A stretch of 28,495 nucleotides of DNA from a virus: the IMG/VR virus record IMGVR_UViG_3300035145_001343, positions 1-28,495 of that record; one strand, 5' to 3'. Below the pieces are notes generated by a model that saw only the letters and a list, made by a program, of their open reading frames with translations, ran no database searches and was not told the origin of the DNA. This document shows positions 468 through 25,468 of this stretch, one piece after another (position 1 is the first letter of the stretch; each line of letters opens with the position of its first letter). The position numbers and the translations under genes were made by a program.

Positions 468-677
468 TCAGTACGCATAGTCGATGCACCGCTCGTGATA
501 CGCCTCCACTGCGGAGTCGTAGGCGTTGGACTTCAGGTACTCTTCCTCGGTACCGTCGAACTCTTCCAAGTCCTCTTGGTACTGCTCAGACTCTACGTAC
601 TCTTCCTCAACACGTGTCCAGTAGTCCAGACGGTCAAGGTATTGGTTTGTTTGGTATGTAACGTGGCAATAACTCAT
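468..677 (-). CDS. Hypothetical acidic protein, 69 aa
   Basis: A small, strongly acidic, tyrosine-rich protein (about a quarter Asp/Glu) with no family that I recognise. Acidic proteins of this size in phages are sometimes DNA mimics or inhibitors, but nothing here shows that. There is no well-placed Shine-Dalgarno. Instead the -10 hexamer TATACT ends 7 nt before the ATG, with TTGACA 16 nt further up, which fits a leaderless mRNA. The stop is followed by a stable hairpin at 424-451. Confidence 0.65.
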   Translation of the reverse strand: MSYCHVTYQTNQYLDRLDYWTRVEEEYVESEQYQEDLEEFDGTEEEYLKSNAYDSAVEAYHERCIDYAY

Positions 678-684
678 GTCCCTA

Positions 685-712
685 AGTATAGTCCTCTCAC
701 TAGGTATGTCAA
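685..712 (-). promoter_or_regulatory. Leaderless-type promoter of the 69-aa gene
   Basis: Minus strand: TTGACA (707-712), 16 nt, TATACT (685-690), then 7 nt to the ATG at 677. Transcription would start at or next to the A of the start codon. Confidence 0.65.
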
Positions 713-719
713 GTCTTTC

Positions 720-998
720 TTACCACTCTCGCCAACTGCGTCCCCAACGGGGTGAAGTCGAACGGAGATAGGTAGCAAGTTCGGGATACTTCTCGGTGAT
801 GGCCTCAGGCAACCACACGTGAACGAACAAGTCGATACTGCGAACGAACCGGCACGGCGAACCGAACCAGAACCGGCTAACCGGCTCACGCTCTTGCTTG
901 GTGGTGAACATACGGAGCCGCTTCATGTCAACATCCCACGGGTCAAGCCCGATACGGTCAACCATGATGCGGAATCCGATGTAGTAGTTGTGGAACAT
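720..998 (-). CDS. Hypothetical protein, 92 aa
   Basis: A 92-aa protein of unknown function, rich in aromatic residues and arginine, with a Trp-rich C-terminus (SPRWGRSWREW). I recognise no domain. Two longer overlapping frames on the same strand (674-889 and 923-1288) are rejected because only this start has a promoter in the geometry used by its neighbours: TACTAT ends 6 nt before the ATG and TTGCAA lies 17 nt above it. Its stop lies about 7 bp beyond the -35 box of the next gene down. Confidence 0.6.
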   Translation of the reverse strand: MFHNYYIGFRIMVDRIGLDPWDVDMKRLRMFTTKQEREPVSRFWFGSPCRFVRSIDLFVHVWLPEAITEKYPELATYLRSTSPRWGRSWREW

Positions 999-1004
999 GG
1001 GTAC

Positions 1005-1033
1005 ATAGTACAGGTGACTGATGCGGATTGCAA
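1005..1033 (-). promoter_or_regulatory. Leaderless-type promoter of the 92-aa gene
   Basis: Minus strand: TTGCAA (1028-1033), 17 nt, TACTAT (1005-1010), then GTACCC and the ATG at 998. There is no Shine-Dalgarno before the start. Confidence 0.55.
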
Positions 1034-1251
1034 CTCAAAGTTATACGGAAATCGCAAAAATCTCAGAGTTTTGACGAGTTTCTGGCTGCGGCTGCGAGAA
1101 TGACGGCTGCGGCTGCGGCAGGGTAGGTGCGTCCCGCTGCGGAGAGCACGAGTCGGGGCTTGGCCGGGGTGCTTGCGGCGGTTGAAGGGGTTGACAACTG
1201 TGGTGTGTTGTGCAGCCAAACTGAACTGAACAAACTTTTTTAGGAAATGGG
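1034..1251. other. Divergent intergenic region with GCTGCG repeats
   Basis: No gene is supported between the divergent transcripts. The 13-mer GGCTGCGGCTGCG occurs twice (1084-1096 and 1105-1117), 8 nt apart. A TTGACA at about 1189 has no matching -10 box. Confidence 0.5.
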
Positions 1252-1279
1252 TTGACATTGCTGATACTGGTGCTAGAGT
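1252..1279 (+). promoter_or_regulatory. Promoter of the 1324-1773 operon
   Basis: TTGACA (1252-1257), 16 nt, TAGAGT (1274-1279). The start of transcription should be near 1286, leaving a leader of about 38 nt that carries a strong Shine-Dalgarno site. Confidence 0.6.
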
Positions 1280-1323
1280 CACAGTCAAGTTCTTTTACAA
1301 CTAAAGAAAGGAGGTGAGACTAC

Positions 1324-1503
1324 ATGTCGATCGTCACTCCGTTGCTGTCTACACAGTGGTGGGACAACGTGTCCGCTGAGGACATGCTTGCCCGTCTGGA
1401 GCGTGACTACCGTTTCGCACTCGGTAACCTGTCTCTTCGTGAGCAGCACCAAGTGTGGACGGACATGGCGACTGTTCGCCAGTACGTCACTCACAACGGC
1501 TGA
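1324..1503 (+). CDS. Hypothetical protein, 59 aa
   Basis: A short frame of 59 codons that starts MSIVTPLLSTQWW and ends YVTHNG. It has one of the best ribosome sites in the window (AGGAGGTGA, 9 nt to the ATG), a promoter upstream and no competing frame, so I treat it as real. It looks like a small soluble, probably helical protein (EDMLARLERDYRF and following). I recognise no family. It is the first gene of a two-gene operon that ends at the terminator at 1800-1823. Confidence 0.7.
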   Translation: MSIVTPLLSTQWWDNVSAEDMLARLERDYRFALGNLSLREQHQVWTDMATVRQYVTHNG

Positions 1504-1584
1504 GTCTCATCGGATAAGTTCCGGCGCTCGGGGGAGCGTGGCAACAGAATCCCCCAATCAACCAACTCCAACCGAAAGGCAACC

Positions 1585-1773
1585 ATGCTTACCAAGCGTT
1601 TCAACATCCGAGTCGGAGACTTCGTGCTTCACAACGGCGCTCCCCGACAGGTAGCCCACAAGTGGAACAGGACGCACGGCTGGGAGACAGTTACAACTTT
1701 CGTGTTTGAAGGTGGTGGCAGTGTCGATCTCTTCGGAGAAGAAACACTCCCCATCATCAAGCCCGTATGGTGA
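1585..1773 (+). CDS. Hypothetical small beta-rich protein, 62 aa
   Basis: A 62-aa protein with alternating hydrophobic and polar residues (RVGDFVLHNGAPRQVAHKW, then a VTTFVFEGGGSVDLFG stretch), suggesting a small SH3- or KOW-like beta barrel; that fold is a guess. The start is supported by AAAGG 8 nt before the ATG. It follows the 59-aa gene after 81 nt in the same transcript, and the stop is followed within 30 nt by a strong terminator. Confidence 0.7.
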   Translation: MLTKRFNIRVGDFVLHNGAPRQVAHKWNRTHGWETVTTFVFEGGGSVDLFGEETLPIIKPVW

Positions 1774-1799
1774 CATAACCCATCAACATCCACCAGAAG

Positions 1800-1823
1800 C
1801 CCACCCTACGGGGTGGGTTTTCT
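1800..1823 (+). terminator. Rho-independent terminator
   Basis: A 7-bp stem, CCCACCC (1800-1806) with GGGTGGG (1811-1817), is closed by a TACG tetraloop and followed by TTTTCT. It ends the 1324-1773 operon. Confidence 0.85.
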
Positions 1824-2193
1824 GCGTTTGAGGCACAGACACGATCAGAACGGCTCAGAAAGCCTGCTGTATCACTCCACGCATCCACACACCCCCAGAA
1901 CGCCTACAAGCCCACAGACACGCTCACAGGCTGTCTCACAAGCAAACAGACAAACAGAGTACTGGTGGACTCCACACAGTCCGAATAGGTAGGGTAAAGA
2001 CAGGGCAGAGGACGAAGCGAACACTCGTTCGGACGAACACATGTTCGGTAATCGACACGAACACCCGTTCGCCCCCCGCCAAGCGAACACATGTTCGGGA
2101 GGGGCGGCAGAGTCCCGCAACTTTTCAACAGCAGCATAGCACCCTGCCCGCAGTTGTGACATATTTTTATGGGGGTTGTTGGTTTGTGTTATG
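1824..2193. other. Convergent intergenic region without a gene
   Basis: Between the plus-strand terminator and the 3' end of the minus-strand SNF2 gene I see no credible coding frame. The two minus-strand frames here (1872-2162 and 1904-2137) are Cys-rich and run through the repeated boxes, so they look like chance. The plus strand is C/A-rich from 1840 to 1990, with a 5-bp inverted repeat GGACT/AGTCC near 1966-1981. The main feature is the array of four LexA-like boxes, listed separately. Confidence 0.6.
2018..2097. promoter_or_regulatory. Array of four LexA (SOS) box-like sites
   Basis: Four sites match CGAAC-N4-GTTCG: CGAACACTCGTTCG (2018-2031), CGAACACATGTTCG (2034-2047), CGAACACCCGTTCG (2058-2071) and CGAACACATGTTCG (2084-2097). 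The pattern is the Gram-positive and actinobacterial LexA box. Distances between starts are 16, 24 and 26 bp. No start codon with a promoter lies next to them, so the regulated gene is not obvious. Other readings are a phage repressor operator array, an origin iteron set or a partition site. Confidence 0.65.
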
Positions 2194-4080
2194 TCAGGGT
2201 TTGGTGTTGAGTATGTTTTGGATTGCTGTTGGTGTGATGGCTGGTTGTGTTTTTTGGGTTTTGTTTTGTAGTGTGTTGTAGATGTGTTGGTCGATTGTTT
2301 GTGGGTTTATGAGGTTGTGGATGGTGGCGGGGTGGTTTTGGCCGATTCTGTGGATTCGGGCGCAGGTTTGGTGGTATTTGGCGGGGGTCCAAGGTGCTTC
2401 GATGAAGAGCATGTTGTGTGATGCTGTTAGGGTGTGTCCGTGTGCTGCTGCTTCTATTGAGATGACGATGTTTTGGCAGTTTGTGTTATTTTGGAATTCT
2501 TGTTTTGCTTTTTCGGTGTCTTTTGGTGGTTGTCCGCCGATGATCATTGGGGCGTTGAGTTCGTTTGCTAGGGTTTGTACTATGTGGCGGTGGTGGGCGG
2601 CGATGACGATTTTTTGTCCTTGGGTGTTTGCGTTTTCGATCCATTCTAGGGCGTGGGGTATTTTGGATTGGGCGGCGATTTTTCTGAGTTCTGTGAGTTG
2701 GATGAGGTTTTCGTAGTTTTGTGTTGCGTAGTGTGCTCGGATTCGTGCTTGGTTGGGGTTGTTGCCTTCGTTGATGGCGATTTGTTCTTGTTGTTGTGTG
2801 TACCATTCTTGTAGGTCGTTGAGGGCGTGGTTGTACATGGTGCGGTGTTTTTTGTCCATTGTGGTGTGGATGGTGTTGTAGGTGATGGGTGGGAGGTCGG
2901 TGAGGACGTGTTCTTTTTCTCTGCGGATGTAGCAGTTGGTTTGTAGTTTGTTGAGGAGTTCTTTGTTGTTGGTTGAGCCGTGGATTTGCCAGTGGCCCCA
3001 GTTGTCTCGGTAGGCTCCGCAGTATCGTTTGTAGAAGTTCCAGCGGCCTCCGAAGTTGTCGATTTGTTGGAGGATTTCTAGTTGTGGGGCGTATTCGGCT
3101 GGCATGTTGGTGATGGGGGTGCCGGTGAGGAGGAGGATGTTGCCGGTGGTGGGGATGTTTTTGGCGATGTTTTTGGCGGCTTTGGTGCGTTGTGCGTCTG
3201 GGTTTTTGCAGTAGTGGGATTCGTCTAGGATGAGGGTGTTGTGGTTTTGGTTGTTGAGGTGTTGTTTTTGGGCGTGGATGTTTGGGTAGCCGATGATGGT
3301 GTAGTCGGTTTCGGTCAGTTCGGGGGTTTTGCGGCCTTCGATGGTTTGGATGGTGCGGTGGGGTAGTGCTTCTTCGATTTTGGTTTTCCAGTCTTCTGTG
3401 AGGCTGGTGGGGCAGATGATGAGGGCTGGGTATTGGTTTGTGTATTCTGTGGTGGCGAGGGCTTGGATGCTTTTGCCGAGGCCCATTTCGTCTGCGATGA
3501 AGGTGCGTTGTTTTTCGGCGGCGTAGGCTACGCCTGCTCGTTGGTAGGGGTAGAGGTCTAGTTGTAGGTTGGGGATGGTGATTTTGGCGTCGGTGGCTTG
3601 TGTGAGGTTTTGGGCGTGTTGGGCTTTTTGGGTTTCGATGTTGGCTTGTGTGCGGATGTGGTCGGGGATGGGGTGGTTGTATTTGTCGGCCCATTGGATG
3701 AGTTCGTGTACGTTGGTGTAGGGGGTTTCCCAGTGATTGTGGTGGGGGTTCCATTTGATGCCGGGGATGGCTTTGAGGTCGTGGATTTGTAGGGTGTCGT
3801 AGGGCACGACGATTTGTAGGATTGCTTTTTCAAGTCTGATGGTGGTTTCGCCTATGGGGTGTTCTGGTAGTTGTAGGCGTATGAGGTCGTCGTCCACGTC
3901 GATGTTCCATGCGTTTGCGAAGGCGATGGCTCGTTTGCGGGCGGCGAGGGGTATTGTCCAGTGTTTGTTGATTTTGTCCCAGCGTGCGTTGGGGAATGAT
4001 GTTTTGAGGGCTTGTACTTCGTCTTTGTTGTAGGGTGTGTCTAGGACGAGTTTTGTGCCTTTGAGGTAGAGTCTTTTCAT
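2194..4080 (-). CDS. SNF2-family DNA helicase with SMARCAL1-like N-terminus
   Basis: A 628-aa superfamily 2 ATPase of the SNF2 type, expected to move along or anneal double-stranded DNA during phage replication or repair. Seen in order: two N-terminal repeats of the form W-D/N-x(4)-HW-x-x-P (about 34-44 and 110-120), resembling the HARP-type modules of annealing helicases; Walker A in DEMGLGKS (about 197-204); the DESH box (about 286-289); LLLTGTPITN (motif III); and a C-terminal RecA lobe ending in motif VI, QTCARIHRIGQ. The frame is open upstream to 4473, but ATG 4080 is chosen because it overlaps the stop of the previous gene as ATGA. It is the last gene of a four-gene operon. The coding strand is very rich in A and C and poor in G and T, unlike neighbouring genes, which suggests separate acquisition. 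Confidence 0.93.
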   Translation of the reverse strand: MKRLYLKGTKLVLDTPYNKDEVQALKTSFPNARWDKINKHWTIPLAARKRAIAFANAWNIDVDDDLIRLQLPEHPIGETTIRLEKAILQIVVPYDTLQIHDLKAIPGIKWNPHHNHWETPYTNVHELIQWADKYNHPIPDHIRTQANIETQKAQHAQNLTQATDAKITIPNLQLDLYPYQRAGVAYAAEKQRTFIADEMGLGKSIQALATTEYTNQYPALIICPTSLTEDWKTKIEEALPHRTIQTIEGRKTPELTETDYTIIGYPNIHAQKQHLNNQNHNTLILDESHYCKNPDAQRTKAAKNIAKNIPTTGNILLLTGTPITNMPAEYAPQLEILQQIDNFGGRWNFYKRYCGAYRDNWGHWQIHGSTNNKELLNKLQTNCYIRREKEHVLTDLPPITYNTIHTTMDKKHRTMYNHALNDLQEWYTQQQEQIAINEGNNPNQARIRAHYATQNYENLIQLTELRKIAAQSKIPHALEWIENANTQGQKIVIAAHHRHIVQTLANELNAPMIIGGQPPKDTEKAKQEFQNNTNCQNIVISIEAAAHGHTLTASHNMLFIEAPWTPAKYHQTCARIHRIGQNHPATIHNLINPQTIDQHIYNTLQNKTQKTQPAITPTAIQNILNTKP

Positions 4081-4277
4081 CTTGGGTTTATTGTTTGGTC
4101 TAACCATTCGTGTACTTCGTTGAATCCGCATTCGGTTAGTTGTTGTTTTGCTTCGGCTCGTTTTTCTGGGCTGTGTTTTATTTTTTCCCAGTTTTCGTCT
4201 GAAAGTATTTCTCGCATTTTGCGGATACTTTGGATAGCCGTGTAGTTGTTGTTTGTACCGAATCGTGGTTTTGTCAT
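4077..4277 (-). CDS. Hypothetical protein, 66 aa (paralogue B)
   Basis: A 66-aa protein of unknown function. Its N-terminal half (RFGTNNNYTAIQSIRK, then EILSDENWE) closely matches the middle of the gene just upstream (RFGTNKNYTAAESIRR, then EIMSPENWE), so the two are tandem paralogues. I place the start at ATG 4277, which overlaps the upstream stop as ATGA and opens with MTKPRFGTN, rather than at 4310. Its own stop overlaps the SNF2 start in the same way, so translation is probably coupled. Confidence 0.75.
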   Translation of the reverse strand: MTKPRFGTNNNYTAIQSIRKMREILSDENWEKIKHSPEKRAEAKQQLTECGFNEVHEWLDQTINPR

Positions 4278-4513
4278 AGTTCGTATTTTTGTACGTCCCA
4301 GTATCCGCATTCTTCGATTTGGGCTTGTCGCCAGTATTGGTCTCTTGTTTCCCAGTTTTCTGGGGACATGATTTCGTTGTATCTGCGGATGCTTTCAGCG
4401 GCGGTATAGTTTTTGTTAGTGCCGAATCGTGTTGCTTGTAGTTCTTTAAACCATTCTGTGTCTGAAATGTCAATCGGTTCTGATATTGAGAATTTGAGGT
4501 CTGAGAATTTCAT
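4274..4513 (-). CDS. Hypothetical protein, 79 aa (paralogue A)
   Basis: A 79-aa protein of unknown function and the longer member of the tandem pair. Residues from about 29 onward (RFGTNKNYTA...SIRR...EIMSPENWE...ECGYWDVQ) align with most of paralogue B; the first 28 residues are unique. Both protein ends are set by ATGA overlaps. The junction upstream and the one downstream share the 12 bases TACGAACTATGA, giving both this protein and the one before it a YEL terminus, as expected if a unit including its junction was duplicated. Confidence 0.75.
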   Translation of the reverse strand: MKFSDLKFSISEPIDISDTEWFKELQATRFGTNKNYTAAESIRRYNEIMSPENWETRDQYWRQAQIEECGYWDVQKYEL

Positions 4514-4860
4514 AGTTCGTACATTTCTTCGGGTAGTACGGGCTGGATTTTGTGGGGGACGGTGTTGTAGGTTTCGTCTAGGTATAGGGGCGTGTTGGGT
4601 CCCATGTAGGCGTTGTAGACGTTGAAGTCGGCGTATTCTTGTGCAGATTCGGGTGTCATGTAGTGGTCGTCTACGAAGATTTGCACAATTTTTTGTTTGC
4701 TGTATACGGCGAGGTGTCTGCGGGTGCCGTCGTGATCCCAGATTTCGGTGTGTCCTATGCAGGCTGCTTCTAGTCCGTCTGCGAATAGTGCGTCGGGGTT
4801 TGCTTCTGCTAGGTGGTCTACTGTGTCGGTGTATCTTGGGAAAAATCCGTATGCTTCCAT
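4510..4860 (-). CDS. Conserved phage-type hypothetical protein, 116 aa
   Basis: First gene of the operon that ends with the SNF2 helicase. The middle and C-terminus (GLEAACIGHTE, AVYSKQKIVQIFVDD, MTPESAQEYADFNVYNAYMGPNTPLYLD) have the shape of a small protein that recurs widely in phages, with a MTPE-AxEYxxFN-xxAYxGxxTP core; its role is unknown. There is no Shine-Dalgarno. TAAACT ends 6 nt before the ATG, suggesting a leaderless mRNA. The stop overlaps the next start as ATGA. Confidence 0.85.
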   Translation of the reverse strand: MEAYGFFPRYTDTVDHLAEANPDALFADGLEAACIGHTEIWDHDGTRRHLAVYSKQKIVQIFVDDHYMTPESAQEYADFNVYNAYMGPNTPLYLDETYNTVPHKIQPVLPEEMYEL

Positions 4861-4866
4861 GCGGCT

Positions 4867-4895
4867 AGTTTACCATATTTTGTGGGGTGGGGCAA
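4867..4895 (-). promoter_or_regulatory. Leaderless-type promoter of the SNF2 operon
   Basis: Minus strand: TTGCCC (4890-4895), 17 nt, TAAACT (4867-4872), then AGCCGC and the ATG at 4860. It lies in the 38-bp gap after the PhyH gene. Confidence 0.6.
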
Positions 4896-4898
4896 ATT

Positions 4899-5864
4899 TT
4901 AGTAGTTGCCGCCGCCGTCTGGGAGTAGCAGATCGGGGTCACCCATGTCGTGTTGGATGCCGTATGATGGGAGGTCTTCCCAGAGCACTCGGTCGTAGGG
5001 AACTTCGGGGAAGTTTCGTCCTAGCCATGTGCGGGTGATTGTGCAGTTGGGGTAGTAGAATCCACCGTCGTCTCCCCAGCGTTGGAAGAAGTGTTCGTTG
5101 GAGTTTGATTTGTTTGTGATGAGGTCGTCTGCCATGATTTCATATGGGACGTGTCCTCCGGCTTTTTCTACTTCTGATTCGGCTACGAGCCGGTTGCACC
5201 AGTGTGCTACGACTGCTGGGCGCTTTACGTTATTTTGTGTGGGTTGGGCGGCTCGGTGTACTGAGCGTCCGTGCCATACTTGTAGGTCACCTCGGCGGGC
5301 GTGGAGTTGCACGATTGGTGCGTTGATTTCTTGTCGGTGAGTTTCAAACTCTGCCGATTTTGGGTGTGTGGTTCTGTCGGGGTTACTGTAACGCTCCCGA
5401 TAGTTTAGGTCCCATTTATGCGATCCGGGGATTGCTTCGATTGCACCGTTTGATTCGTTACAATCACCTAATGCTACCATTCCCCCAACGTAGTTTTTTG
5501 GTCCTACGTCGTGGGGGTGGGTAGCGTCTAGGTGCCATCCGGTGTGTTGCACTGTCATCCGTGTTTTGGTGACGTGCAGTGCTACGGCGATGTCAATTTC
5601 TTTGAAGAAATTGTTTACGCCTTTGTGGCAGAGCACTTCTTTCAGTTCGGGGACGTGCATGTATGCTTTGTCGTCTTCCCATCCTGTGAAGTTTGGATTA
5701 TCGGGTGTGTCGAATTCGGCGTCCCATCGTTCCCCGTACATGTCTAATGACTCGTCGGGTACAGCGTTGGGGATGATCGCAAAGCCGTGCTTTTCGTAAA
5801 ACTCGGCGGTGTCTGTGCGTTCACCGTTGTATTCGTAGTTGTCGATAATCGTGATTTCGCTCAT
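4899..5864 (-). CDS. PhyH-family Fe(II)/2-oxoglutarate dioxygenase
   Basis: A 321-aa phytanoyl-CoA-dioxygenase-like enzyme, expected to hydroxylate a small molecule, sugar, lipid or base using iron, oxygen and 2-oxoglutarate. The facial triad is visible: HxD in TGWHLDATH (H111, D113) and the distal His in GDLQVWHGRSVHRAA (H203), with the 2-oxoglutarate-binding Arg in VKRPAVVAHW (R215). ATG 5864 is chosen over the longer frame to 6128 because it overlaps the deacetylase stop as ATGA. It ends the operon HAD, ThyX, deacetylase, PhyH. A second PhyH enzyme lies at 23829-24728. The substrate is unknown; the deacetylase partner suggests an acetylated intermediate. Confidence 0.9.
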   Translation of the reverse strand: MSEITIIDNYEYNGERTDTAEFYEKHGFAIIPNAVPDESLDMYGERWDAEFDTPDNPNFTGWEDDKAYMHVPELKEVLCHKGVNNFFKEIDIAVALHVTKTRMTVQHTGWHLDATHPHDVGPKNYVGGMVALGDCNESNGAIEAIPGSHKWDLNYRERYSNPDRTTHPKSAEFETHRQEINAPIVQLHARRGDLQVWHGRSVHRAAQPTQNNVKRPAVVAHWCNRLVAESEVEKAGGHVPYEIMADDLITNKSNSNEHFFQRWGDDGGFYYPNCTITRTWLGRNFPEVPYDRVLWEDLPSYGIQHDMGDPDLLLPDGGGNY

Positions 5865-6775
5865 ACCGTTAGTGTAGCAACTTTTTCTTTTTCCCACCAT
5901 TCCATCTGGTTTTCTGCCTTGTTGATGGTATTGATGTGGGATTGGACGAGTTCGTCCATTGTTTGTGCGTGCGTATATCCGCCTGCGAGCACGTAGGCTA
6001 CGGGTGTGTCTGCTTTGTATGCTTCGCTGAACACAACTTGGTCTCGGTATGCGAGGTCTGCGTGCGAAATGCGAGGGTAGGGGTCTGTTCCTGCATTGTA
6101 CAATACAAGGTCGATCTGGTCGTCCCACAAAAGATCAAATGCGGTTTGCATCTGATGAATGTAGTCGTCGCTGTTGTCTGCGTTAAGAATGAAGTGGGTT
6201 TCGTCCTCTGCGTACTCGTCAAAGTAGTTCGTGGAGATGTCGGCTTGCCATACTTGCTGGTCGATGCCGAGGTGTCGTAGTGTTCTTACGGTTCCTCCGC
6301 CGCAGTGTGCGTCAAAATCTAGGATAACAATCTTCATTGACGGGTTCATTTCAAGCATGAAGTTTGCGGCGACAGCCAGACCGTTGACGGTGCAGAATCC
6401 CATGCCTCCGTTGTGGTCGGCGTGGTGCAGACCTGAGGATAGGCTTCCGGCGATTGTCTTGTTCTTGTAGGCTTCGGATGCGGCGTTGATTACTCCTAGG
6501 GTGGAGTTGAGTGCCATTTCCCAAATGCCGTAGTCCCATTGGAAGCCGTTAGACTGTGCTCTCGGTCCACCAGTTTGGAGGGCTTCGTAGTATTCGGGCG
6601 TGATCGCCTTGCGGATTGCTTCGTCTGCGTCTTGCAGGTTGAAGTGTCCGTGCGTGGCGGGGTCACTGATGTGTTCGTGGCCAATCGTGTCTGCGATGTG
6701 TCCGCTCTTGCGGGTTGTGTCGAAGGCGTGCTTGGCTCCGGTGTATTTTTCGTTCCAGTAAATTGTGTGTTTCAT
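5861..6775 (-). CDS. HDAC/AcuC-fold zinc deacetylase
   Basis: A 304-aa member of the arginase-deacetylase superfamily that also holds histone deacetylases, AcuC and acetylpolyamine amidohydrolases. The catalytic set is complete: the His dyad in GLHHADHNGGMGFC (H117, H118), zinc ligands in DFDAHCGGGT (D155, H157) and in YNAGTDP (D231), and the active-site Tyr in LAGGYT (Y267). It should remove acetyl groups from an amine. ATG 6775 is chosen over 6889 because AAGGAG sits 4 nt before it. It follows thyX by 11 nt and overlaps the PhyH start as ATGA. Such enzymes are unusual in phages; the target could be a polyamine, a sugar or a host protein. Confidence 0.9.
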   Translation of the reverse strand: MKHTIYWNEKYTGAKHAFDTTRKSGHIADTIGHEHISDPATHGHFNLQDADEAIRKAITPEYYEALQTGGPRAQSNGFQWDYGIWEMALNSTLGVINAASEAYKNKTIAGSLSSGLHHADHNGGMGFCTVNGLAVAANFMLEMNPSMKIVILDFDAHCGGGTVRTLRHLGIDQQVWQADISTNYFDEYAEDETHFILNADNSDDYIHQMQTAFDLLWDDQIDLVLYNAGTDPYPRISHADLAYRDQVVFSEAYKADTPVAYVLAGGYTHAQTMDELVQSHINTINKAENQMEWWEKEKVATLTV

Positions 6776-6786
6776 CTTGCTCCTTG

Positions 6787-8054: not shown

Positions 8055-8087
8055 GTTTTGCTCCTTTGTTTTCCATTACTGACACCC

Positions 8088-9295: not shown

Positions 9296-11101
9296 TCACC
9301 AAGGAGTCACCTCGTCGTCAAACTCTTCGTTTTGGTATGCTTCGTTTAATTCTTCATCACTACGATCTGATCCTTGCGGAGCAACACTGTTTTGATACTG
9401 TGAGAACTCTACGACTTCAAAAGGCCATGTTTCACCACGCTTACAGAGAGCAGGCCATTCTCGGGCTTCTCGCTGTCCACGGTAGTGCTTGAACTCAATC
9501 AGTTCAGGATCGGTGGGGTCGGGCGCTAGTGCTAGACCGAACTCTGACCAGCGTGACCATACGGCTGAACCGAACGGTCGTAGGTCTCGCTGACCGCCTG
9601 AACCTAGCGGAGCGTGGTGCTCAATCCAGAGCGCACAGTTGTAGGTGTGCCGGATGTAGTCTAGGAACTTGGCAATTTCGATTGAAACTGACTCTGCTGT
9701 TCGGCCACCGGGGTCAATGAACGCTTTGTAGAGCGGCCCGAAGAAAACAATGTCGGGCTGAACCATTGCCACGTGCTCTTCAATGAGCGCCTTGTCTTTG
9801 GGCGTCAACAAGTTAACACCGTCAGGCTTCATCAACAGGTGTGCGTCCATGTCTTCGTGCTTGCCAAACCACTTGATCTTGTCATAGATACGCAACGATG
9901 TGCGCCGAATGATTCGTTCAGGGTTTTCTAGGTCGATCATCAATGTACGTACCTTCGGCATTGCATCACGACGGAACGGGTGGATGCCTGCGGATGACAT
10001 GAGTGCAACCTGTCGGGCGAGGGTAGTCTTACCGGCACCCTCAGCGGCGACAACGATGACACGCTCTTGACGCTCTAGTACGTTGGGAATCACCCAGTCG
10101 TATGAGAGGTCTACGTCGGTCTCTAGGAACGGTGACCATTCAACAAGGTTGCCCCCGTCTTCGTGTTGGCGGTCCTTGGTGCTGATGAAGGAGTCGAAGT
10201 GTGACGCTACCCGCCCCATGAGAAGACTTTCGCTCATCTCTTGTCCTTGCAGGTCTGCGAGACTGCTGATCAATTTGCTGAGCGCAGTGTCATCCGTTTC
10301 TTCAGGTTCAGGAATAGCCGTGGCATCAAACGGTGTAAGCGTGTCCGCTAACTCGTCACCAGCGTCAATTAGGTCGGAAACGTCATTGTACTTTCCGGGC
10401 TTGAACACCTTGACGTTGCATCCGGCTTCGGTGAGCATCTTGTTAACGGAGCGTGCGTGTAGGTAGCCTGCTTCGTCGTTATCGCAGATGATGATGACGT
10501 TTGCTCCAGCAAGCGCTTCAGTGTGATGAGGCATCCATTTGTTTTGGCCTTCTGCACCTGCACCACCGGGGTTGGTGGTAGCAGTCTTGCCCAGAGCCTC
10601 TAGGCTGTGTACGTCCTTCTCGCCTTCTACGACGTAAATCGGACGGCCTTCTTCCTTGGCGTGAATAACTTGGGGAAGACGGTACAGTGGCTTTTCAATG
10701 TCTGAAGTTGACCAGTTCCAGCCTCCCGCATCTTCATCGGGGCGACGTTGCCTGAAAGTCTTCTTACCGTTGTCGTCTACAAACCGCAGAACCTCCATCG
10801 CTAGAGTTCCGTCTGCATAGTAGTACTTGTAAGTGTCAACAAGGTCCAACTTAGACTTCTTCGGCTTAGGTGCGTCCTTGGGGAACAAGTCACCAACCTC
10901 TAGCCCGATAGACTCACAAATCTCGCCAAGTTCACATCCGCCACCACGCAGGCACTTCATTAGAACCTGACCTTGCTTGCCGACCGACACCCGCAAAGAA
11001 GGGTTGTCGTCGTCACTGCGGCAGGGGCATGTAGCATCCCACTGGTTCTTTCCAGATGACGTGTGGTTGACTCGTGCTAGTACGTTATCAATCGGTTCCA
11101 T
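9296..11101 (-). CDS. Bifunctional primase-helicase
   Basis: A 601-aa replication protein joining a DnaG-like primase half to a RecA-fold helicase. Seen in order: an N-terminal zinc-binding motif (C25, C27, C50, C56); a TOPRIM domain with EGEKD (159-163) and DNDEAG (207-212); and a P-loop AAEGAGKTT (352-360) followed by a Walker B-like DIVFFGPLY stretch. The helicase half looks more like RepA/RSF1010-type ATPases than the T7 type. ATG 11101 is chosen over 11158 because GGAG lies 4 nt before it and the protein then begins at a conserved-looking N-terminus. It overlaps the preceding gene by 14 nt. It should prime and unwind DNA at the phage fork. Confidence 0.93.
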   Translation of the reverse strand: MEPIDNVLARVNHTSSGKNQWDATCPCRSDDDNPSLRVSVGKQGQVLMKCLRGGGCELGEICESIGLEVGDLFPKDAPKPKKSKLDLVDTYKYYYADGTLAMEVLRFVDDNGKKTFRQRRPDEDAGGWNWSTSDIEKPLYRLPQVIHAKEEGRPIYVVEGEKDVHSLEALGKTATTNPGGAGAEGQNKWMPHHTEALAGANVIIICDNDEAGYLHARSVNKMLTEAGCNVKVFKPGKYNDVSDLIDAGDELADTLTPFDATAIPEPEETDDTALSKLISSLADLQGQEMSESLLMGRVASHFDSFISTKDRQHEDGGNLVEWSPFLETDVDLSYDWVIPNVLERQERVIVVAAEGAGKTTLARQVALMSSAGIHPFRRDAMPKVRTLMIDLENPERIIRRTSLRIYDKIKWFGKHEDMDAHLLMKPDGVNLLTPKDKALIEEHVAMVQPDIVFFGPLYKAFIDPGGRTAESVSIEIAKFLDYIRHTYNCALWIEHHAPLGSGGQRDLRPFGSAVWSRWSEFGLALAPDPTDPELIEFKHYRGQREAREWPALCKRGETWPFEVVEFSQYQNSVAPQGSDRSDEELNEAYQNEEFDDEVTPW

Positions 11102-11549
11102 AATGCTCCAAAATATATGCCTCTCTAGTCTTCTCGTACAAGGAGGTAAACATAGCACGATCTGAGTTAGTTGTCAAGGCCGTGGCGTTAGTGCCCAGCC
11201 TGCGAATGGTTTGCGCAAGAACAGGGTGCGGCTTTACGTAGTCGTAAGTGCCGCTGTAAATCTTCTGCCCGATGGCTTGCAGGATAGTCCACGCTTCTTC
11301 GGGTTCAGGGGGTAGTTCTTCGCCGTTCATGTATGAGAGCGTGGCGAGGCGAAGTTCTCCGGGCTTGGGTAGCCACTTGCGCCCAGCCATTCCCATACGC
11401 TTAATAGTTGTTTTAGTTTCTTCATAGGGCAAGTCGTGGATAAACTCCCAGTATCCCTTCGCTCGCACAGTGAGGGATGCGGTGTCTAGTGACTTGTCCC
11501 AAGTTACACTTAGCAGTTCAACGACTGCTTTGCATTCAGTCTTTTCCAT
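11088..11549 (-). CDS. Hypothetical protein, possible helicase loader
   Basis: A 153-aa protein just before the primase-helicase. Its helical N-terminal 70 residues (ELLSVTWD, YWEFIHDLPYEETKTTIKRM, WLPKPGELR) resemble the loader domain of phage replisome organisers such as G39P, which load the helicase. That match is from memory of the pattern and is tentative. The start has no usable Shine-Dalgarno: AAAGGAGG lies 14 nt away, inside the promoter spacer. TATGCT ends 6 nt before the ATG, so a leaderless mRNA is likely. Confidence 0.75.
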   Translation of the reverse strand: MEKTECKAVVELLSVTWDKSLDTASLTVRAKGYWEFIHDLPYEETKTTIKRMGMAGRKWLPKPGELRLATLSYMNGEELPPEPEEAWTILQAIGQKIYSGTYDYVKPHPVLAQTIRRLGTNATALTTNSDRAMFTSLYEKTREAYILEHYGTD

Positions 11550-11555
11550 GAGATA

Positions 11556-11584
11556 AGCATAGCCTCCTTTCGATCATCTGTCAA
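11556..11584 (-). promoter_or_regulatory. Leaderless-type promoter of the loader/primase operon
   Basis: Minus strand: TTGACA (11579-11584), 17 nt, TATGCT (11556-11561), then TATCTC and the ATG at 11549. It starts right after the ssb terminator. Confidence 0.75.
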
Positions 11585-11588
11585 TCCC

Positions 11589-11618
11589 AGAAAAGAAGAA
11601 GCCCCCCTTTCGGGGGGC
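11589..11618 (-). terminator. Terminator of ssb
   Basis: A perfect GC stem, GCCCCCC (11601-11607) with GGGGGGC (11612-11618), has a GAAA tetraloop when read on the minus strand and is followed by TTCTTCTTTTC. It lies 22 nt after the ssb stop. Confidence 0.92.
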
Positions 11619-11640
11619 CGGTCTCCTTTCGTGTGTTTGA

Positions 11641-12075: not shown

Positions 12076-12132
12076 TTTCTTCTCCTATCATATTCGCTAT
12101 TTACAGATGCTGCTTTCTCAAGCAGTACTGGT

Positions 12133-12161
12133 ATTATAATCGACCCGTGGTGGCCTGTCAA
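12133..12161 (-). promoter_or_regulatory. Consensus ssb promoter
   Basis: Minus strand: TTGACA (12156-12161), 17 nt, TATAAT (12133-12138), an exact sigma-70 match. A 9-bp inverted repeat, TCAAGCAGT (12118-12126) and ACTGCTTGA (12163-12171), flanks it and may be a pair of operator half-sites. Confidence 0.85.
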
Positions 12162-12167: not shown

Positions 12168-12196
12168 TTGATCAGAAAATTTTCTGGCACTAGACT
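12168..12196 (+). promoter_or_regulatory. Leaderless-type promoter of the 68-aa gene
   Basis: TTGATC (12168-12173), 17 nt, TAGACT (12191-12196), then AACAGC and the ATG at 12203. It is divergent from the ssb promoter, and its -35 box overlaps the inverted-repeat half-site at 12163-12171. Confidence 0.65.
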
Positions 12197-12202
12197 AACA
12201 GC

Positions 12203-12409
12203 ATGTCTGAAGAAAACATTGAACAAGCACAAACGGCCCTATTCAACTATTTCGTGGACACGCTAGTTGACCTGTCCGATCCCGAAGACGAAGACAAAGA
12301 ATTTGTTCAAGACAGCATGTGTCAACTGGTGACCATTCTGTTTGAGGGTCTAGACTTACAGGTGCTGTCGGAAGACGACGGAGAGTTAAACGTCCGTGTC
12401 TCTCTTTGA
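12203..12409 (+). CDS. Hypothetical acidic protein, 68 aa
   Basis: A small, very acidic helical protein (SDPEDEDKEF in the middle) of unknown function. It has no Shine-Dalgarno but a -10 box 6 nt before the ATG. It is a single plus-strand gene between minus-strand blocks and its end overlaps the 3' end of the convergent thymidine kinase gene by 24 nt. It could be an inhibitor or DNA mimic, but nothing proves this. Confidence 0.7.
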   Translation: MSEENIEQAQTALFNYFVDTLVDLSDPEDEDKEFVQDSMCQLVTILFEGLDLQVLSEDDGELNVRVSL

Positions 12410-13001: not shown

Positions 13002-13235
13002 TCACTCCTGTTGTGCGCTGTTCCAAACGGCGGAACGATCAGACCGGTAGGTTGGGGAAACAGTTTTGGGTACGTTTTCTACGCCGGTTACTGCTGGAGA
13101 GTAGTAGACCTTTTTGACTGACATCTTTTTTCCGGTGTCAGGGTGCTCCAGTTCTGTCAAAGTGTCGTCAGAGAAAGACTGGTAAACGTCAACGGTGTCG
13201 TCAGTGTCGATGAATCTGTACGTGTAAGTAGGCAT
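13002..13235 (-). CDS. FmdB-like small protein lacking the zinc-ribbon cysteines
   Basis: A 77-aa protein whose start (MPTYTYRFIDTDDTVDVYQSFSDD, then LTELEHPDTGKK) follows the FmdB regulatory-protein pattern, MPxYxYRCxxCGxxFEVxQSFSD and a second CxxC. All four zinc-binding Cys positions are replaced, and the whole protein has no cysteine. It probably keeps the ribbon fold without metal, or has a new role. It is the first gene of the operon with thymidine kinase. TATAAT ends 7 nt before the ATG and there is no Shine-Dalgarno. Confidence 0.8.
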   Translation of the reverse strand: MPTYTYRFIDTDDTVDVYQSFSDDTLTELEHPDTGKKMSVKKVYYSPAVTGVENVPKTVSPTYRSDRSAVWNSAQQE

Positions 13236-13242
13236 GTGTCTT

Positions 13243-13270
13243 ATTATACCGCCTGATTGGCCGTTGGCAA
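13243..13270 (-). promoter_or_regulatory. Leaderless-type promoter of the FmdB-like/tdk operon
   Basis: Minus strand: TTGCCA (13265-13270), 16 nt, TATAAT (13243-13248), then 7 nt to the ATG at 13235. A plus-strand -10 candidate for the next gene, TACAAT, lies at 13284-13289, so the two genes diverge from this gap. Confidence 0.65.
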
Positions 13271-17264: not shown

Positions 17265-17293
17265 AGGATACTACATATGCTAGCGTCTGTCAA
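17265..17293 (-). promoter_or_regulatory. Promoter of the 105-aa gene
   Basis: Minus strand: TTGACA (17288-17293), 17 nt, TATCCT (17265-17270). The -35 box overlaps the recA stop codon. The leader is about 20 nt with a Shine-Dalgarno. Confidence 0.65.
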
Positions 17294-18264
17294 ATAGATG
17301 AGTAGATAGTGTCCGCAATAGTTTCTCGGATGTCTTCGTTTTCATCCAAGAACGCCTTCGTGTTGGCACGGCCCTGTCCGATGTTCTCACCCTTGTATGC
17401 GTACCACGCACCCTTCTTATCAAGGATGCCCATTTCGGCGGCGATGTCTACAATGTCTCCGGTACGGCTAATTCCCTCACCGTATGCGATTTCAAACTCT
17501 GCCTGACGGAAAGGTGGGGCGCACTTGTTCTTGACAACCTTAACTCGTGTCTTGTTACCGGACGCTTCGCCGCCATCCTTCAACGTTTCAATACGGCGAA
17601 TGTCCATTCGGACTGACGCATAAAACTTAAGCGCCTTACCACCAGTAGTCACTTCGGGCGAACCGAACATTACGCCAATCTTCTCACGCAACTGGTTGAT
17701 CATGATGAGCGTCGTCTTTGAGTTGTTGAGATTTGCAACAATCTTACGCATGGCTTGCGACATGAGGCGAGCGTGCAGACCAACATGACTGTCTCCCATC
17801 TCACCCTCAATTTCCGCACGAGGTGTAAGCGCTGCCACTGAGTCCACGACCACAACATCCAGAGCACCCGATTCAATCAACTTGTTCGTGATTGTCAGGG
17901 CCTGTTCGCCTGTGTCTGGCTGTGAAACGAGAAGATCGTCAATGTCGCATCCGATTGCCTTAGCGTACACAGGGTCTAGTGCGTGCTCTGCGTCGATGAA
18001 CGCACACTTGCCACCGTTCTTTTGGGCCTCTGCAATAATGTGAAGCGCAATAGTGGTCTTGCCTGAAGACTCAGGGCCATAGATTTCTGTAACTCGCCCA
18101 CGAGGCACGCCTCCGACACCCAACGCCAAGTCAAGAGCAATGGAGCCGGTTGAAATTGTTTCGATCTGCATTGAAGCGGCGTCACCAAGACGCATGATGC
18201 TTCCTTCGCCAAACTGCTTTTCGATTTGACCTAGGGCATCTGAGAGAAGTTTATCTTTATCCAT
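17290..18264 (-). CDS. recA: RecA recombinase
   Basis: A 324-aa bacterial-type RecA, slightly shorter than the usual 340-350 because the acidic tail is reduced. Seen: Walker [10 protein letters not shown] (63-71), Walker [11 protein letters not shown], the L1/L2 region with [18 protein letters not shown] and [31 protein letters not shown], and a normal C-terminal domain. It forms the strand-exchange filament in recombination and could trigger LexA cleavage. There is no Shine-Dalgarno; TACAAT ends 6 nt before the ATG, so a leaderless mRNA is likely. No SOS box lies at its promoter. Confidence 0.98.
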
Positions 18265-18270
18265 AGTCGT

Positions 18271-18299
18271 ATTGTATGGTTTCGGTGGCTTCTAGTCAA
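18271..18299 (-). promoter_or_regulatory. Leaderless-type recA promoter
   Basis: Minus strand: TTGACT (18294-18299), 17 nt, TACAAT (18271-18276), then ACGACT and the ATG at 18264. It shares a 56-bp gap with the divergent gene at 18321. Confidence 0.75.
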
Positions 18300-18308
18300 G
18301 GGGGCTGG

Positions 18309-18314
18309 TACCAT
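18309..18314 (+). promoter_or_regulatory. -10 box of the 121-aa gene
   Basis: TACCAT lies 6 nt before the ATG at 18321, the same placement as at recA. No good -35 box is seen at the matching distance, so this promoter may need an activator. Confidence 0.4.
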
Positions 18315-18320
18315 ATCTGT

Positions 18321-18686
18321 ATGAGTAAACGTGGACCGAAGCGGTTGGTCACTCAGGCAGTACGCTTGGGTGAGTACGGACAAACTAAATGGCATATTGA
18401 GTTGGAGTGTGGGCACGCTGTTGAAAGCGCCCGCAAGCCTAAGGTGAACGAAGACCGCCTGTGCTGTAAGACTTGTATCGCTCCTCCTGCCCCCGTGCCT
18501 CTGATGGAGGTGCTGTCCGATGATAGGGAAGACCGTGACTTCTTTACCCCTTATGATCCGATGGAGGATATTCGGATGCGTGCGGCGATTGCTTCTAAAG
18601 TCGGAGTCCCTATGGATCAGGTGGAACTCGTAAACGGAACCGCTACGGTGTTTCTTGATGCTCAGCAGGTTCGTAGGCTGGTTTGA
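18321..18686 (+). CDS. Hypothetical zinc-knuckle-like protein, 121 aa
   Basis: A 121-aa protein with a possible N-terminal metal site (ELECGHAVES then LCCKTC: Cys, His and three further Cys within about 27 residues) and a C-terminal part ending MDQVELVNGTATVFLDAQQVRRLV. I recognise no named family. ATG 18321 is chosen over 18276 because the longer version would start inside the recA promoter and the short one has a -10 box 6 nt before it. It diverges from recA. Confidence 0.75.
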   Translation: MSKRGPKRLVTQAVRLGEYGQTKWHIELECGHAVESARKPKVNEDRLCCKTCIAPPAPVPLMEVLSDDREDRDFFTPYDPMEDIRMRAAIASKVGVPMDQVELVNGTATVFLDAQQVRRLV

Positions 18687-18907: not shown

Positions 18908-19167
18908 TGTTCTCCGTGCAGTGACTGGCATCCCGTCAAGGATGTTGTTCCAGTGTATCGTGCGATTCAAATCGTTCCTCTTTGGGCAGGCGTGCCCTCT
19001 TAGTCTTCAAAGTACCAGTTGCGTAACGAGTGTAACCCTCCGGTCCTTCAGTGAACGTTTATGTCATCGGGATTTCCCGGCGTCAGTCTTGTGGCAGTTT
19101 GCTCCTTCTGTAGTTTGCTCGTAGTGTAGTTAAACGGCGTGGCTGTGTCAAGGACAGGATTTTTCGG
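18908..19167. other. Unexplained 260-bp stretch
   Basis: No convincing gene on either strand. A 5-bp hairpin GGGCA-GGCG-TGCCC lies near 18987-19000 and a short minus-strand frame of 29 codons near 18840-18930 has no good ribosome site. The stretch is pyrimidine-rich on the plus strand, unlike nearby coding DNA. A structured RNA or decayed gene is possible. Confidence 0.4.
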
Positions 19168-19196
19168 TTGTTTGCTTGACAGCAATTTTATAAACT
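19168..19196 (+). promoter_or_regulatory. Promoter of the whiB gene
   Basis: TTGTTT (19168-19173), 17 nt, TAAACT (19191-19196), then ACCAGC and an ATG at 19203. That ATG opens a 9-codon frame, not whiB itself; whiB starts 17 nt later with its own Shine-Dalgarno. Confidence 0.55.
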
Positions 19197-19202
19197 ACCA
19201 GC

Positions 19203-19232
19203 ATGATGAAAGGAGATCAATGTTTGATGTGA
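19203..19232 (+). CDS. Possible leaderless leader peptide, 9 aa
   Basis: The frame MMKGDQCLM starts 6 nt after the -10 box and stops inside the whiB coding region. It carries within it the AAAGGAG that serves whiB. It could tune whiB translation, or be chance. Confidence 0.3.
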   Translation: MMKGDQCLM

Positions 19233-19842: not shown

Positions 19843-19863
19843 CATGCGTAAATTGAGTACACT
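19835..19863 (+). promoter_or_regulatory. Promoter of the recombination operon
   Basis: TTGACT (19835-19840), 17 nt, TACACT (19858-19863). It overlaps the end of the previous gene and leaves a leader of about 25 nt with AAGGAG before the 172-aa gene. Confidence 0.65.
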
Positions 19864-19894
19864 ACAGGTAGTTACTATTTATTAAGGAGACATA

Positions 19895-21856: not shown

Positions 21857-21859
21857 CAC

Positions 21860-23433: not shown

Positions 23434-23878
23434 GCCACTTCGTCGCACTCCGTTAAAGCGTGGGGATAGTCAGTTGAAGCGTTCCCCTTTGAATAAGCGC
23501 TCAAAGAAAATGCAAACAAAGTATGTTAAACGCAGGGCGCTGGTTGAAGATTTACTAAATGAACGTCCTCTTTGTCAGGCATGTGTAGTCTTTGCTGTGT
23601 ATGACGGTAAGCAGGGTGCAGTAACTGTTAACAGAACTGACGACATTCACGAACTAGTTAACCGATCTCAGGGTGGGAGCATTTTAGACCTCCCTAATTT
23701 ACTAGCGGTATGCCGACCATGCCATACTAGGATAACTGTTAGTCCTAAGCAGGCCGAAGAACTTGGTTTACATTTAGAAAGTTGGTGCAACACCGAAGAG
23801 CACCTTACAGAAGCAGAAAGAGTGAGAAATGAGTGGAAAAACGGGATTGCTACAAAACCTTATTGGTTCAGCGATTGA
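23420..23878 (+). CDS. HNH endonuclease, GTG start
   Basis: A 152-aa HNH nuclease with a very basic N-terminus (KRGKPLRRTPLKRG). The site shows CxxC at 52-55, DIHEL (H77), N93 and CRPCH (C98, C101, H102). The start is GTG with AAAGG upstream, overlapping the glycosyltransferase end by 14 nt. Phage HNH enzymes of this size serve packaging, homing or host-DNA cutting; no intron or intein is visible nearby, so a homing role is not supported. Confidence 0.85.
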   Translation: MKRGKPLRRTPLKRGDSQLKRSPLNKRSKKMQTKYVKRRALVEDLLNERPLCQACVVFAVYDGKQGAVTVNRTDDIHELVNRSQGGSILDLPNLLAVCRPCHTRITVSPKQAEELGLHLESWCNTEEHLTEAERVRNEWKNGIATKPYWFSD

Positions 23879-24728
23879 GCATCATCCAAATTTGTTAGCA
23901 GAAATTAATTTACTGTCCGGCGGCTTTGCGAATCAAGACCTTCCTTGGCTTGATCGTGAAAAGATTGGGGATTTTGTTTTAAGTGATTTTGAGCGGCAGT
24001 GGCGTAATGACGGAGTTTTGATTTTGGATTCTTTCATGCCTGATGATATTATTGAGGCGTATAAGGAGTCATGGATTCAGCACAATCGGATTAACCACGA
24101 CAGACCAATGGGGTATCCGGGCGAGTGCGCTTACTTCCAAGTGCCTAGCCTGATGGAACTAGCGACATACAAGCCCCTTCACCAAATACTAGAATCTCTC
24201 ATTGGAGATCAGATGGGAATCCATTTGAATCTTACTGGTTGGAAGTCAACCACCCGTAACTGGCACCAAGACGGGTACTTAAACCCTGACGCAAACAAAG
24301 ATCACTATCTTGCAGTCTGGGTAGCCCTAGATGATATTCATGAAGATGCTGGACCGTTTGAGTTTGTGCGAGGGAGTCACGTACTCCCCACGATCACACA
24401 GCAGGCAACGAAGCAGAGAATTCCTGTTAATTTGCGAGATGACCCTAACTGGCCAAGGTATTCTGAGGAGTTCCTAACGCCGATGTTTGAAGACATTATT
24501 AGTCGTGGCGGTTTACAGAAGGAGCAGTTTATTGCAAAGAAGGGCGATGTGCTTATTTGGCACGCTCGTCTAATGCACAGGGGTACTGTTCCGAACAATC
24601 CTGATTTGTGGCGTGAAGCAGTTATTCTGCATTACTCTGGTGTAAATCATCGTCCAGATATGCCTCAGGCTAGACAACATAACGATGGTGGCTGGTATTT
24701 CCCCATCCATCAAGACATTGAACTGTAA
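23829..24728 (+). CDS. PhyH-family dioxygenase (second copy)
   Basis: A 299-aa Fe(II)/2-oxoglutarate oxygenase, only distantly like the one at 4899-5864. The metal site is complete: NWHQDGYLNP (H146, D148), then GDVLIWHARLMHRG (H250) and the cosubstrate Arg in LWREAVILHY (R262). The annotated ATG overlaps the HNH gene by 50 nt and has only a weak Shine-Dalgarno, so the true start may be slightly later. It sits between two HNH genes and downstream of a glycosyltransferase, consistent with tailoring of a glycan or base. Confidence 0.88.
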   Translation: MSGKTGLLQNLIGSAIEHHPNLLAEINLLSGGFANQDLPWLDREKIGDFVLSDFERQWRNDGVLILDSFMPDDIIEAYKESWIQHNRINHDRPMGYPGECAYFQVPSLMELATYKPLHQILESLIGDQMGIHLNLTGWKSTTRNWHQDGYLNPDANKDHYLAVWVALDDIHEDAGPFEFVRGSHVLPTITQQATKQRIPVNLRDDPNWPRYSEEFLTPMFEDIISRGGLQKEQFIAKKGDVLIWHARLMHRGTVPNNPDLWREAVILHYSGVNHRPDMPQARQHNDGGWYFPIHQDIEL

Positions 24729-25108
24729 TGCCTACCGATTATGGTAAGAGTGCTAAGGCTAAGGCTACCAAACTTCATAGTCTGTACGTCCGCACTAGAG
24801 ATAACTTTACTTGCCGCTGGTGCGGTGCGACTAAAGAGAGTGGCAAGCAGATTCAATGTGCTCACATTATTTCTCGTAGTATTTCTTCCACTAGGACTGA
24901 CGAGCGTAATGCGGTGGCGCTTTGTGCGTCATGCCATTGGGCACAGTCAAAGAATCCACTTGTTTGGGCAAGATGGCTTGAGGCCGAATTAGGCAGAGAA
25001 TTTCTAGATGATTTGTTAGAGCGTGGCGTTCCGGGGGTCAAGGTTGACTGGGGCGTTGAAGTTGTGCGCTTACAGAACGCTCTTGACCATTTAAAGAATG
25101 CAGGGTAG
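24728..25108 (+). CDS. HNH endonuclease (second copy)
   Basis: A 126-aa HNH nuclease with a basic N-terminus. CRWC (C29, C32), CAHIISR (H46), N61 and CASCHW (C66, C69, H70) give a full zinc-supported ββα-metal site. The ATG overlaps the PhyH stop as TAATG. It is not a close copy of the HNH at 23420-23878, so the two were probably gained separately. Confidence 0.88.
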   Translation: MPTDYGKSAKAKATKLHSLYVRTRDNFTCRWCGATKESGKQIQCAHIISRSISSTRTDERNAVALCASCHWAQSKNPLVWARWLEAELGREFLDDLLERGVPGVKVDWGVEVVRLQNALDHLKNAG

Positions 25109-25111
25109 AAT
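25083..25111 (+). promoter_or_regulatory. Leaderless-type promoter of the 116-aa gene
   Basis: TTGACC (25083-25088), 17 nt, TAGAAT (25106-25111), then AACGAT and the ATG at 25118. It overlaps the end of the HNH gene. Confidence 0.7.
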
Positions 25112-25117
25112 AACGAT

Positions 25118-25468
25118 ATGAATACTGTGCGCAATAAGCCTATCACTCCGGTGGAGGTTGAGAGTGAGTTGATTCGCTTAACTAGCGAGATTGAGGAAGA
25201 GACAGAAGCGTTTGAGGTCTTGGCTAAAGACCATGCGCAAAAAGAAGCCGCTTATAAGAAGCAGTGGTTCAAGGAGTACCTTGCGGCTGAAGGAGCGGTC
25301 AAGCAGAAAGAGAGTTGGGCTGGGTACAAGACCAGCGAACTATATTATGATTCGATGGTTGCAGAAGCGCTCGTTAAAGCAAAGCGTGAAAAACTACATT
25401 CATTACGCACGGCTTGTGATGCGCTTCGTACAATCGCAGCGAATGTTAGATCACAAGCAAAGTTCTAA
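25118..25468 (+). CDS. Coiled-coil hypothetical protein, 116 aa
   Basis: A 116-aa highly charged helical protein with likely coiled coil through most of its length (SEIEEETEAFEVLAKDHAQKE, then VKAKREKLHSLRTACDALRT). Proteins of this form are common near recombination genes in actinophages and have no known activity. It has no Shine-Dalgarno but a promoter with the -10 box 6 nt before the ATG, and heads the operon that runs to the right edge. Confidence 0.8.
   Translation: MNTVRNKPITPVEVESELIRLTSEIEEETEAFEVLAKDHAQKEAAYKKQWFKEYLAAEGAVKQKESWAGYKTSELYYDSMVAEALVKAKREKLHSLRTACDALRTIAANVRSQAKF

Follow-up and report, generated by a model that had tools for sequence, protein, structure and literature searches.

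Leaderless genes of the 'TA-led' kind, with a TANNNT hexamer ~12 bp ahead of the start codon, are widespread in Actinobacteria (Zheng et al. 2011, PMC3160421). A map of transcription start sites in M. smegmatis found 24–25% of mycobacterial transcripts to be leaderless and mycobacterial promoters to be without a conserved -35 consensus (PMC6448022). Among phages, three SigA-like leaderless promoters (PL1, PR2, and PL2) have been predicted in the Cluster O mycobacteriophages (Corndog group; PMC4351075), and a leaderless transcript has been predicted for gene 90 of mycobacteriophage Adephagia (PMC11373665). Here we describe a family of promoter-like sequences with fixed geometry ahead of recA and other genes in a 28,495-nucleotide stretch from an uncultured virus (IMG/VR contig IMGVR_UViG_3300035145_001343, positions 1–28,495; hereafter, the window). 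Our reading, to which we assign a probability of roughly 0.9, is that SigA-like promoters of the form TTGAC-N17-TANNNT are set such that transcription would begin at the A of the start codon, that the resulting leaderless mRNAs would be translated by the 70S/leaderless route, and that the choice between leaderless and leadered expression would be made gene by gene and inherited.

The leaderless layout and its conservation

The layout searched for in the window consisted of TTGNNN, a spacer of 16/17 nt, TANNNT, a gap of 7/6 nt, and ATG. It occurs 11 times. The original prediction had put forward a family of leaderless promoters with fixed geometry and had proposed a comparison with shuffled sequence; the pattern is far rarer there, with a mean of 0.47 and a maximum of 3 in 500 dinucleotide shuffles. 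When spacers of 16–18 nt are allowed, eight matches fall at gap 6 and four at gap 7, with 0–3 at other gaps. Nine of the 11 matches open real genes. Every layout previously quoted (at ATG 998, 677, 4860, 11549, 13235, 18264, 12203, and 25118) was found on rereading, and the promoter at ATG 28069, which had been overlooked, joins them. The predicted leaderless promoters, along with recA, are as follows.

999–1033, minus strand: promoter of gene 720–998; TTGCAA (1028–1033), spacer 17, TACTAT (1005–1010), gap 6.
678–712, minus strand: promoter of gene 468–677; TTGACA (707–712), spacer 16, TATACT (685–690), gap 7.
4861–4895, minus strand: promoter of gene 4510–4860; TTGCCC-17-TAAACT-6.
11550–11584, minus strand: promoter of gene 11088–11549; TTGACA-17-TATGCT-6.
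12168–12202, plus strand: promoter of gene 12203–12409; TTGATC-17-TAGACT-6.
13236–13270, minus strand: promoter of gene 13002–13235; TTGCCA-16-TATAAT-7.
17290–18264, minus strand: recA, 324 amino acids (Pfam PF00154, E 9.5e-137), with the leaderless layout.
25083–25117, plus strand: promoter of gene 25118–25468; TTGACC-17-TAGAAT-6 (-10 at 25106–25111).
28034–28068, plus strand: promoter of the ParB-like gene from 28069 onward; TTGACT-17-TAGGCT-6 (-10 at 28057–28062).

ATG 2582 (plus strand) was rejected as a gene start, as it lies antisense within a helicase gene and its match to the layout is probably due to chance.

About 40 IMG/VR contigs encode a RecA that is 83–98% identical to that of the window. 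A search for the strict pattern TTGAC-N17/19-TANNNT-N6/7-ATG across 21 related contigs gave 121 matches, compared with two for the reversed pattern. Genes were called in the window and six long relatives (seven genomes in all) with a simple purpose-made gene caller. A promoter-like pair of hexamers precedes the start codon at gap 6 in 74 genes and at gap 7 in 18, as against 1–12 genes (mostly 3–7) at any other gap. Sixty-six of these 92 leaderless-layout genes combine spacer 17 with gap 6, and 90 start with ATG, the other two with GTG. The hexamers are TTGACA-like and TANNNT and lie 16–18 nt apart, as in SigA (sigma-70 housekeeping) promoters, and the first T of TANNNT stands ~12–13 nt ahead of the start codon, as in TA-led genes.

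The layout is conserved by family. Among the seven genomes, it is kept by all orthologues of 25118 (7/7), 28069 (7/7), 11549 (6/6), and recA (6/6), as well as in two families that have no member in the window (6/6 and 5/5). It is also present at the recA of G008, which was not included in the seven-genome recA cluster. The test was extended to all relatives by counting distinct upstream sequences, and ten control genes of the window were scored by the identical rule. Summed over nine gene families, 98 of 122 distinct upstream sequences keep the layout, compared with 4 of 164 for the control genes, most of which have Shine–Dalgarno (SD) sites. These counts are not probabilities, because the relatives are not independent samples. 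By family, the layout is found in 27/27 upstream sequences for recA, 18/22 for 25118, 13/16 for 11549, 17/19 for 13235, 9/14 for 28069, 4/5 for 4860, and 3/3 for 998. For 12203, the full layout is kept in 6 of 15 distinct relatives and TANNNT at gap 6 or 7 in 13 of 15. The single upstream sequence of 677 (1/1) provides no conservation test, since no relative of this gene was found.

It might be supposed that the -10-like words near start codons reflect chance or composition and that the mRNAs are leadered. Intergenic DNA is indeed AT-rich, and generic sigma-70 scans of the window barely exceed shuffles (14 vs 11.0 and 20 vs 15.4). However, the restriction of the peak to gaps 6–7, the conservation, and the control genes all contradict this explanation, which we consider extremely improbable. 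The generic scan was set aside as a detector, as it is too insensitive to tell sites from shuffles.

Transcription start, gene context, and the polymerase involved

The search rule used the two hexamers alone, and two further properties of the leaderless-layout genes are independent of it. The base at -1 of the ATG is C or T in 90% of these genes, compared with 54% at other ATG genes, and SD-like words precede 13 of 92, compared with 270 of 482 other ATG genes. Because base -1 is rich in pyrimidines and SD sites are rare, RNA synthesis probably starts at the A of the ATG. Constraint at the level of DNA is evident where the -35 lies inside the end of the upstream coding sequence. Here an Asp codon is invariably GAC (14/14 distinct sequences at 25118 and 6/6 at 28069), although GAC makes up 42% of Asp codons across the genomes and neighboring Asp codons are mixed. 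This invariance indicates selection on DNA rather than on protein, with the qualification that the sequences are related to one another. Taken together, spacing, conservation, the base at -1, and the missing SD sites make leaderless expression a well-supported prediction.

Ordinary housekeeping-type promoters would thus place +1 at the start codon, and the leader-free mRNA would be translated by a route widely used by Actinobacteria. Some of these promoters would be inserted into co-directional gene runs, with the stop codon of the upstream gene built into the -10. The genes at 25118 and 28069 each begin 9 nt after the preceding co-directional gene, and those at 4860 and 677 begin 38 and 42 nt after it, respectively. 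Owing to the 9-nt gap, the -10 hexamers at 25118 and 28069 take their first three bases from the stop codon of the upstream gene, TAG or TAA (TAG 25106–25108 and TAG 28057–28059 in the window), and this fusion is retained among relatives. At gap 6 in the seven genomes, 37 genes head a run and another 37 follow a co-directional gene at a distance of no more than 40 nt, whereas most other gaps hold about 0–7 genes per class. The layout is therefore not restricted to the heads of transcription units, contrary to the claim that all such promoters occupy that position. One gene that does appear to open a new unit is 11549, which is marked as such by a hairpin.

11600–11619, minus strand: hairpin resembling an intrinsic terminator, between ssb and the 11549 promoter.

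The original prediction also suggested that the layout might mark early genes of a single timing class, that is, genes expressed together at one time in infection. Consistent with this idea, those carriers in the window whose function is assigned mostly serve DNA metabolism or are small genes of early type. In addition, in the long relatives a distinct motif, AGTT-N22-TGNTANNATAATA, is found 75–90 nt ahead of the major head protein and tail sheath genes only, which suggests that virion genes expressed at high level may have leadered promoters of their own. The -10 part of this motif has 15 forward and 3 backward matches. In a scan of the collection, the matches listed lie in apparently unrelated contigs.

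~47680–47710 of locus L164 (genome G001) and ~35650–35686 of locus L163: AGTT-N22-TGNTANNATAATA sites, with orthologues likewise.
12076–12161, minus strand: leadered ssb promoter, for contrast; perfect TTGACA-17-TATAAT at 12133–12161, leader of ~50 nt, SD AGGAG.

Against a timing class, four of five orthologues of the tail-assembly chaperone gene carry the layout, whereas ssb, the primase-helicase gene, and the 19895 gene share the TTGACA/TANNNT core but have SD leaders. For ssb, this holds across relatives (leaderless 0/16, SD 16/16 distinct sequences). Furthermore, the words CTTGACA, TATAATA, and TAGAATA are enriched in long leadered intergenic regions. The leadered ssb promoter and this enrichment suggest that one core promoter serves leaderless and leadered genes alike. 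We therefore give a regulated early class only a small chance of being correct, and favor SigA-like promoters whose leaderless or leadered state would be set per gene, be conserved by descent, and be independent of timing and operon position.

Several of these leaders have features of their own. In the ssb leader (12076–12130, minus strand), a motif near ATCTGYAAATAG occurs in almost all relatives and may belong to a regulatory leader. The leader of the 19895 gene (19865–19894, plus strand) retains ACTATTTATTAAGGAG across relatives. Among orthologues of 11549, some have a leaderless promoter and others begin at an ordinary SD-led start (11549 of the window; loci L025 and L027).

As to the polymerase that reads these sites, a phage-encoded sigma factor would make them a phage-specific promoter class. 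A sigma-70-family factor with Sigma70_r2 and r4 in one gene is present in the four relatives of at least 90 kb (66988–67911 in G001, and also in G002, G006, and G008), and strong -35 hexamers are far denser in the phages than in five actinobacterial metagenome-assembled genomes. However, the leaderless sites follow the standard TTGACA/TATAAT consensus, the sigma gene of G001 is located in the structural part of that genome, and the capsid/sheath motif, which is absent from leaderless genes, is a better candidate target. A phage sigma factor thus seems an unlikely reader, and recognition by a host SigA is what we infer.

The window encodes RecA, ssb, a primase-helicase, an SNF2-type helicase, thymidylate synthase, thymidine kinase, an exonuclease, ParB-like proteins, a PAPS-reductase-like protein, and a WhiB factor (Pfam PF02467). 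A nucleotide search of the window against GenBank phages gave no matches. Larger relatives encode a tail sheath, a major head protein, and a tail-assembly chaperone, which identifies the family as a contractile-tailed phage group. WhiB and the closest cellular RecA sequences (66–71%), which are mostly actinobacterial, point to a probable actinobacterial host, and assignment through RecA resolves only to 'Actinobacteria-like'. A side feature of the window is a very strong GC and AT skew in the helicase region (2200–6000), the plus strand being rich in G and T.

Four points weigh against host-read leaderless promoters. The relatives are non-independent samples, gene starts depend on a simple caller, WhiB and the closest cellular RecA are the sole pointers to an actinobacterial host, and, given the relatives' own sigma-70-family factor, these sites may have readers in addition to host SigA.

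The recA/18321 region and the whiB promoter

The start codons of recA and of a divergent gene are separated by 56 bp, a single region that would fire in both directions.

18265–18320, both strands: bidirectional region between recA ATG 18264 (minus) and ATG 18321 (plus).
Within 18265–18320, minus strand: recA promoter; TTGACT (18294–18299), spacer 17, TACAAT (18271–18276), gap 6.
Within 18265–18320, plus strand: 18321 promoter; T[GT]GNNN (18286–18291), spacer 17, TACCAT (18309–18314), gap 6, with a poor -35.
18321–18686, plus strand: gene 18321, with no assigned function and a leaderless-layout start.

For 18321, the -10 box without a clear -35 had been described correctly, and despite the poor -35, TANNNT at gap 6 is kept in 25/25 relatives. 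Of 36 relatives, 27 have the two ATGs 56 nt apart; the spacing is 57 nt in 4, 58 nt in 2, and 80 nt in 2. Fully invariant columns in the alignment essentially match the promoter elements and comprise TTGAC and TA[CG]AATA for recA, TANNATA and bases 1 and 3 of T[GT]G on the other strand, and one additional base; the spacers vary. In the 56-nt form, the cores overlap face to face, with the -35 of each promoter sitting in the spacer of the other, and polymerase would therefore not be expected to bind both at once. The 80-nt form keeps both layouts without the overlap.

The second promoter with unusual architecture belongs to whiB.

19168–19219, plus strand: whiB promoter; TTGTTT (19168–19173), TTGACA box (19176–19181), TAAACT (19191–19196), expected start 19203.

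ATG 19203 had been listed as having the same layout and opening a 9-codon frame. Both are present (TTGTTT-17-TAAACT-6, plus strand), but the start codon is not conserved: at the expected +1, relatives have ATC, GTG, GTT, or another triplet, and a conserved leader peptide was accordingly rejected. The true ATG of whiB is at 19220, preceded by a short leader and the SD AAAGGAG, and the most plausible reading of ATG 19203 is that a whiB mRNA with this short leader begins there. In six relatives (L023, L025, L026, L027, L029, and L030), whiB itself has the leaderless layout. An additional TT[GT]AC[AG] box is found exactly 9 nt before the whiB -10 in 24/24 distinct relatives, with the TTG-like -35 located 2 nt ahead of it. 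This composite occurs once per genome, at whiB, and is partly dyad in some relatives (TTGTC-N5-GACAA). When the collection was scanned for it, about half of the matches outside the family were not ahead of whiB genes. Autoregulation of whiB by WhiB would be a guess. A similar arrangement, TTGTCT-CC-TAGACA-N9-TAAAGT-6-ATG, lies upstream of a gene for a 52-residue membrane-like protein (L162:17732–17890 and orthologues; leaderless layout in 6/6), and an inverted repeat covers the -35 of this gene.

A broader scheme, which we offer tentatively and regard as doubtful, is that the 56-bp region is a conserved switch. Polymerase would hold one of the two face-to-face leaderless promoters at a time, such that the choice between recA and 18321 would be fixed without a repressor. 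Along with the whiB composite promoter and the capsid/sheath motif, this switch would outline a transcription programme in three parts for a family of uncultured actinophages.

Comparison with known systems

The layout has practical consequences. It would fix true start codons, as for 18321, whose longest frame begins at 18276, and it yields single-base predictions for dozens of transcription starts. It also provides evolution-tested sequence evidence that an uncultured actinophage family may depend on leaderless mRNAs to express its recombination genes, partition-like genes, and some of its virion-assembly genes, and that leaderless status in a phage may be inherited gene by gene. Both the overlap of the recA and 18321 promoters and the fusion of stop codons with -10 boxes are compact arrangements open to direct testing.

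The phage sites resemble actinobacterial TA-led genes in having TANNNT ~12 bp before the start, no SD, and a peak at gap 6/7. This peak was observed in the actinobacterial loci fetched (100 and 114 vs 21.6) and was absent from the non-actinobacterial loci fetched for comparison. Two differences are evident: in the phage sites a near-consensus TTGAC stands at a constant spacing of 17 nt, whereas mycobacterial promoters have no -35 consensus (PMC6448022), and GTG starts are rare in the phage genes, unlike in the actinobacterial TA-led set. In the five actinobacterial metagenome-assembled genomes, the strict TTGAC pattern shows no excess over control (11 vs 19), and so cannot tie the phage to a host. 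WhiB7 is known to work together with SigA at the promoter of its own gene by way of an AT-rich site that precedes the -35 (PMC3905903); the phage whiB box is arranged differently.

Among the phage precedents are the Cluster O promoters, of which PL1 and PR2 diverge from one intergenic region (PMC4351075), much like recA and 18321. Three sites were identified there, by prediction alone, whereas the present family has tens per genome set, tested across orthologues and including 9-nt intergenic gaps. Adephagia gene 90 is likewise predicted to be leaderless, but is a single gene linked to a toxin-antitoxin pair, with no family-wide pattern (PMC11373665). The leaderless mechanism is already known from the presumed host group; the striking point is that it is conserved inside runs of genes and where two genes stand back to back. 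SigA-type promoters giving leaderless expression are common in Actinobacteria and have been predicted before in mycobacteriophages, and the present case is an unusually well-supported one.

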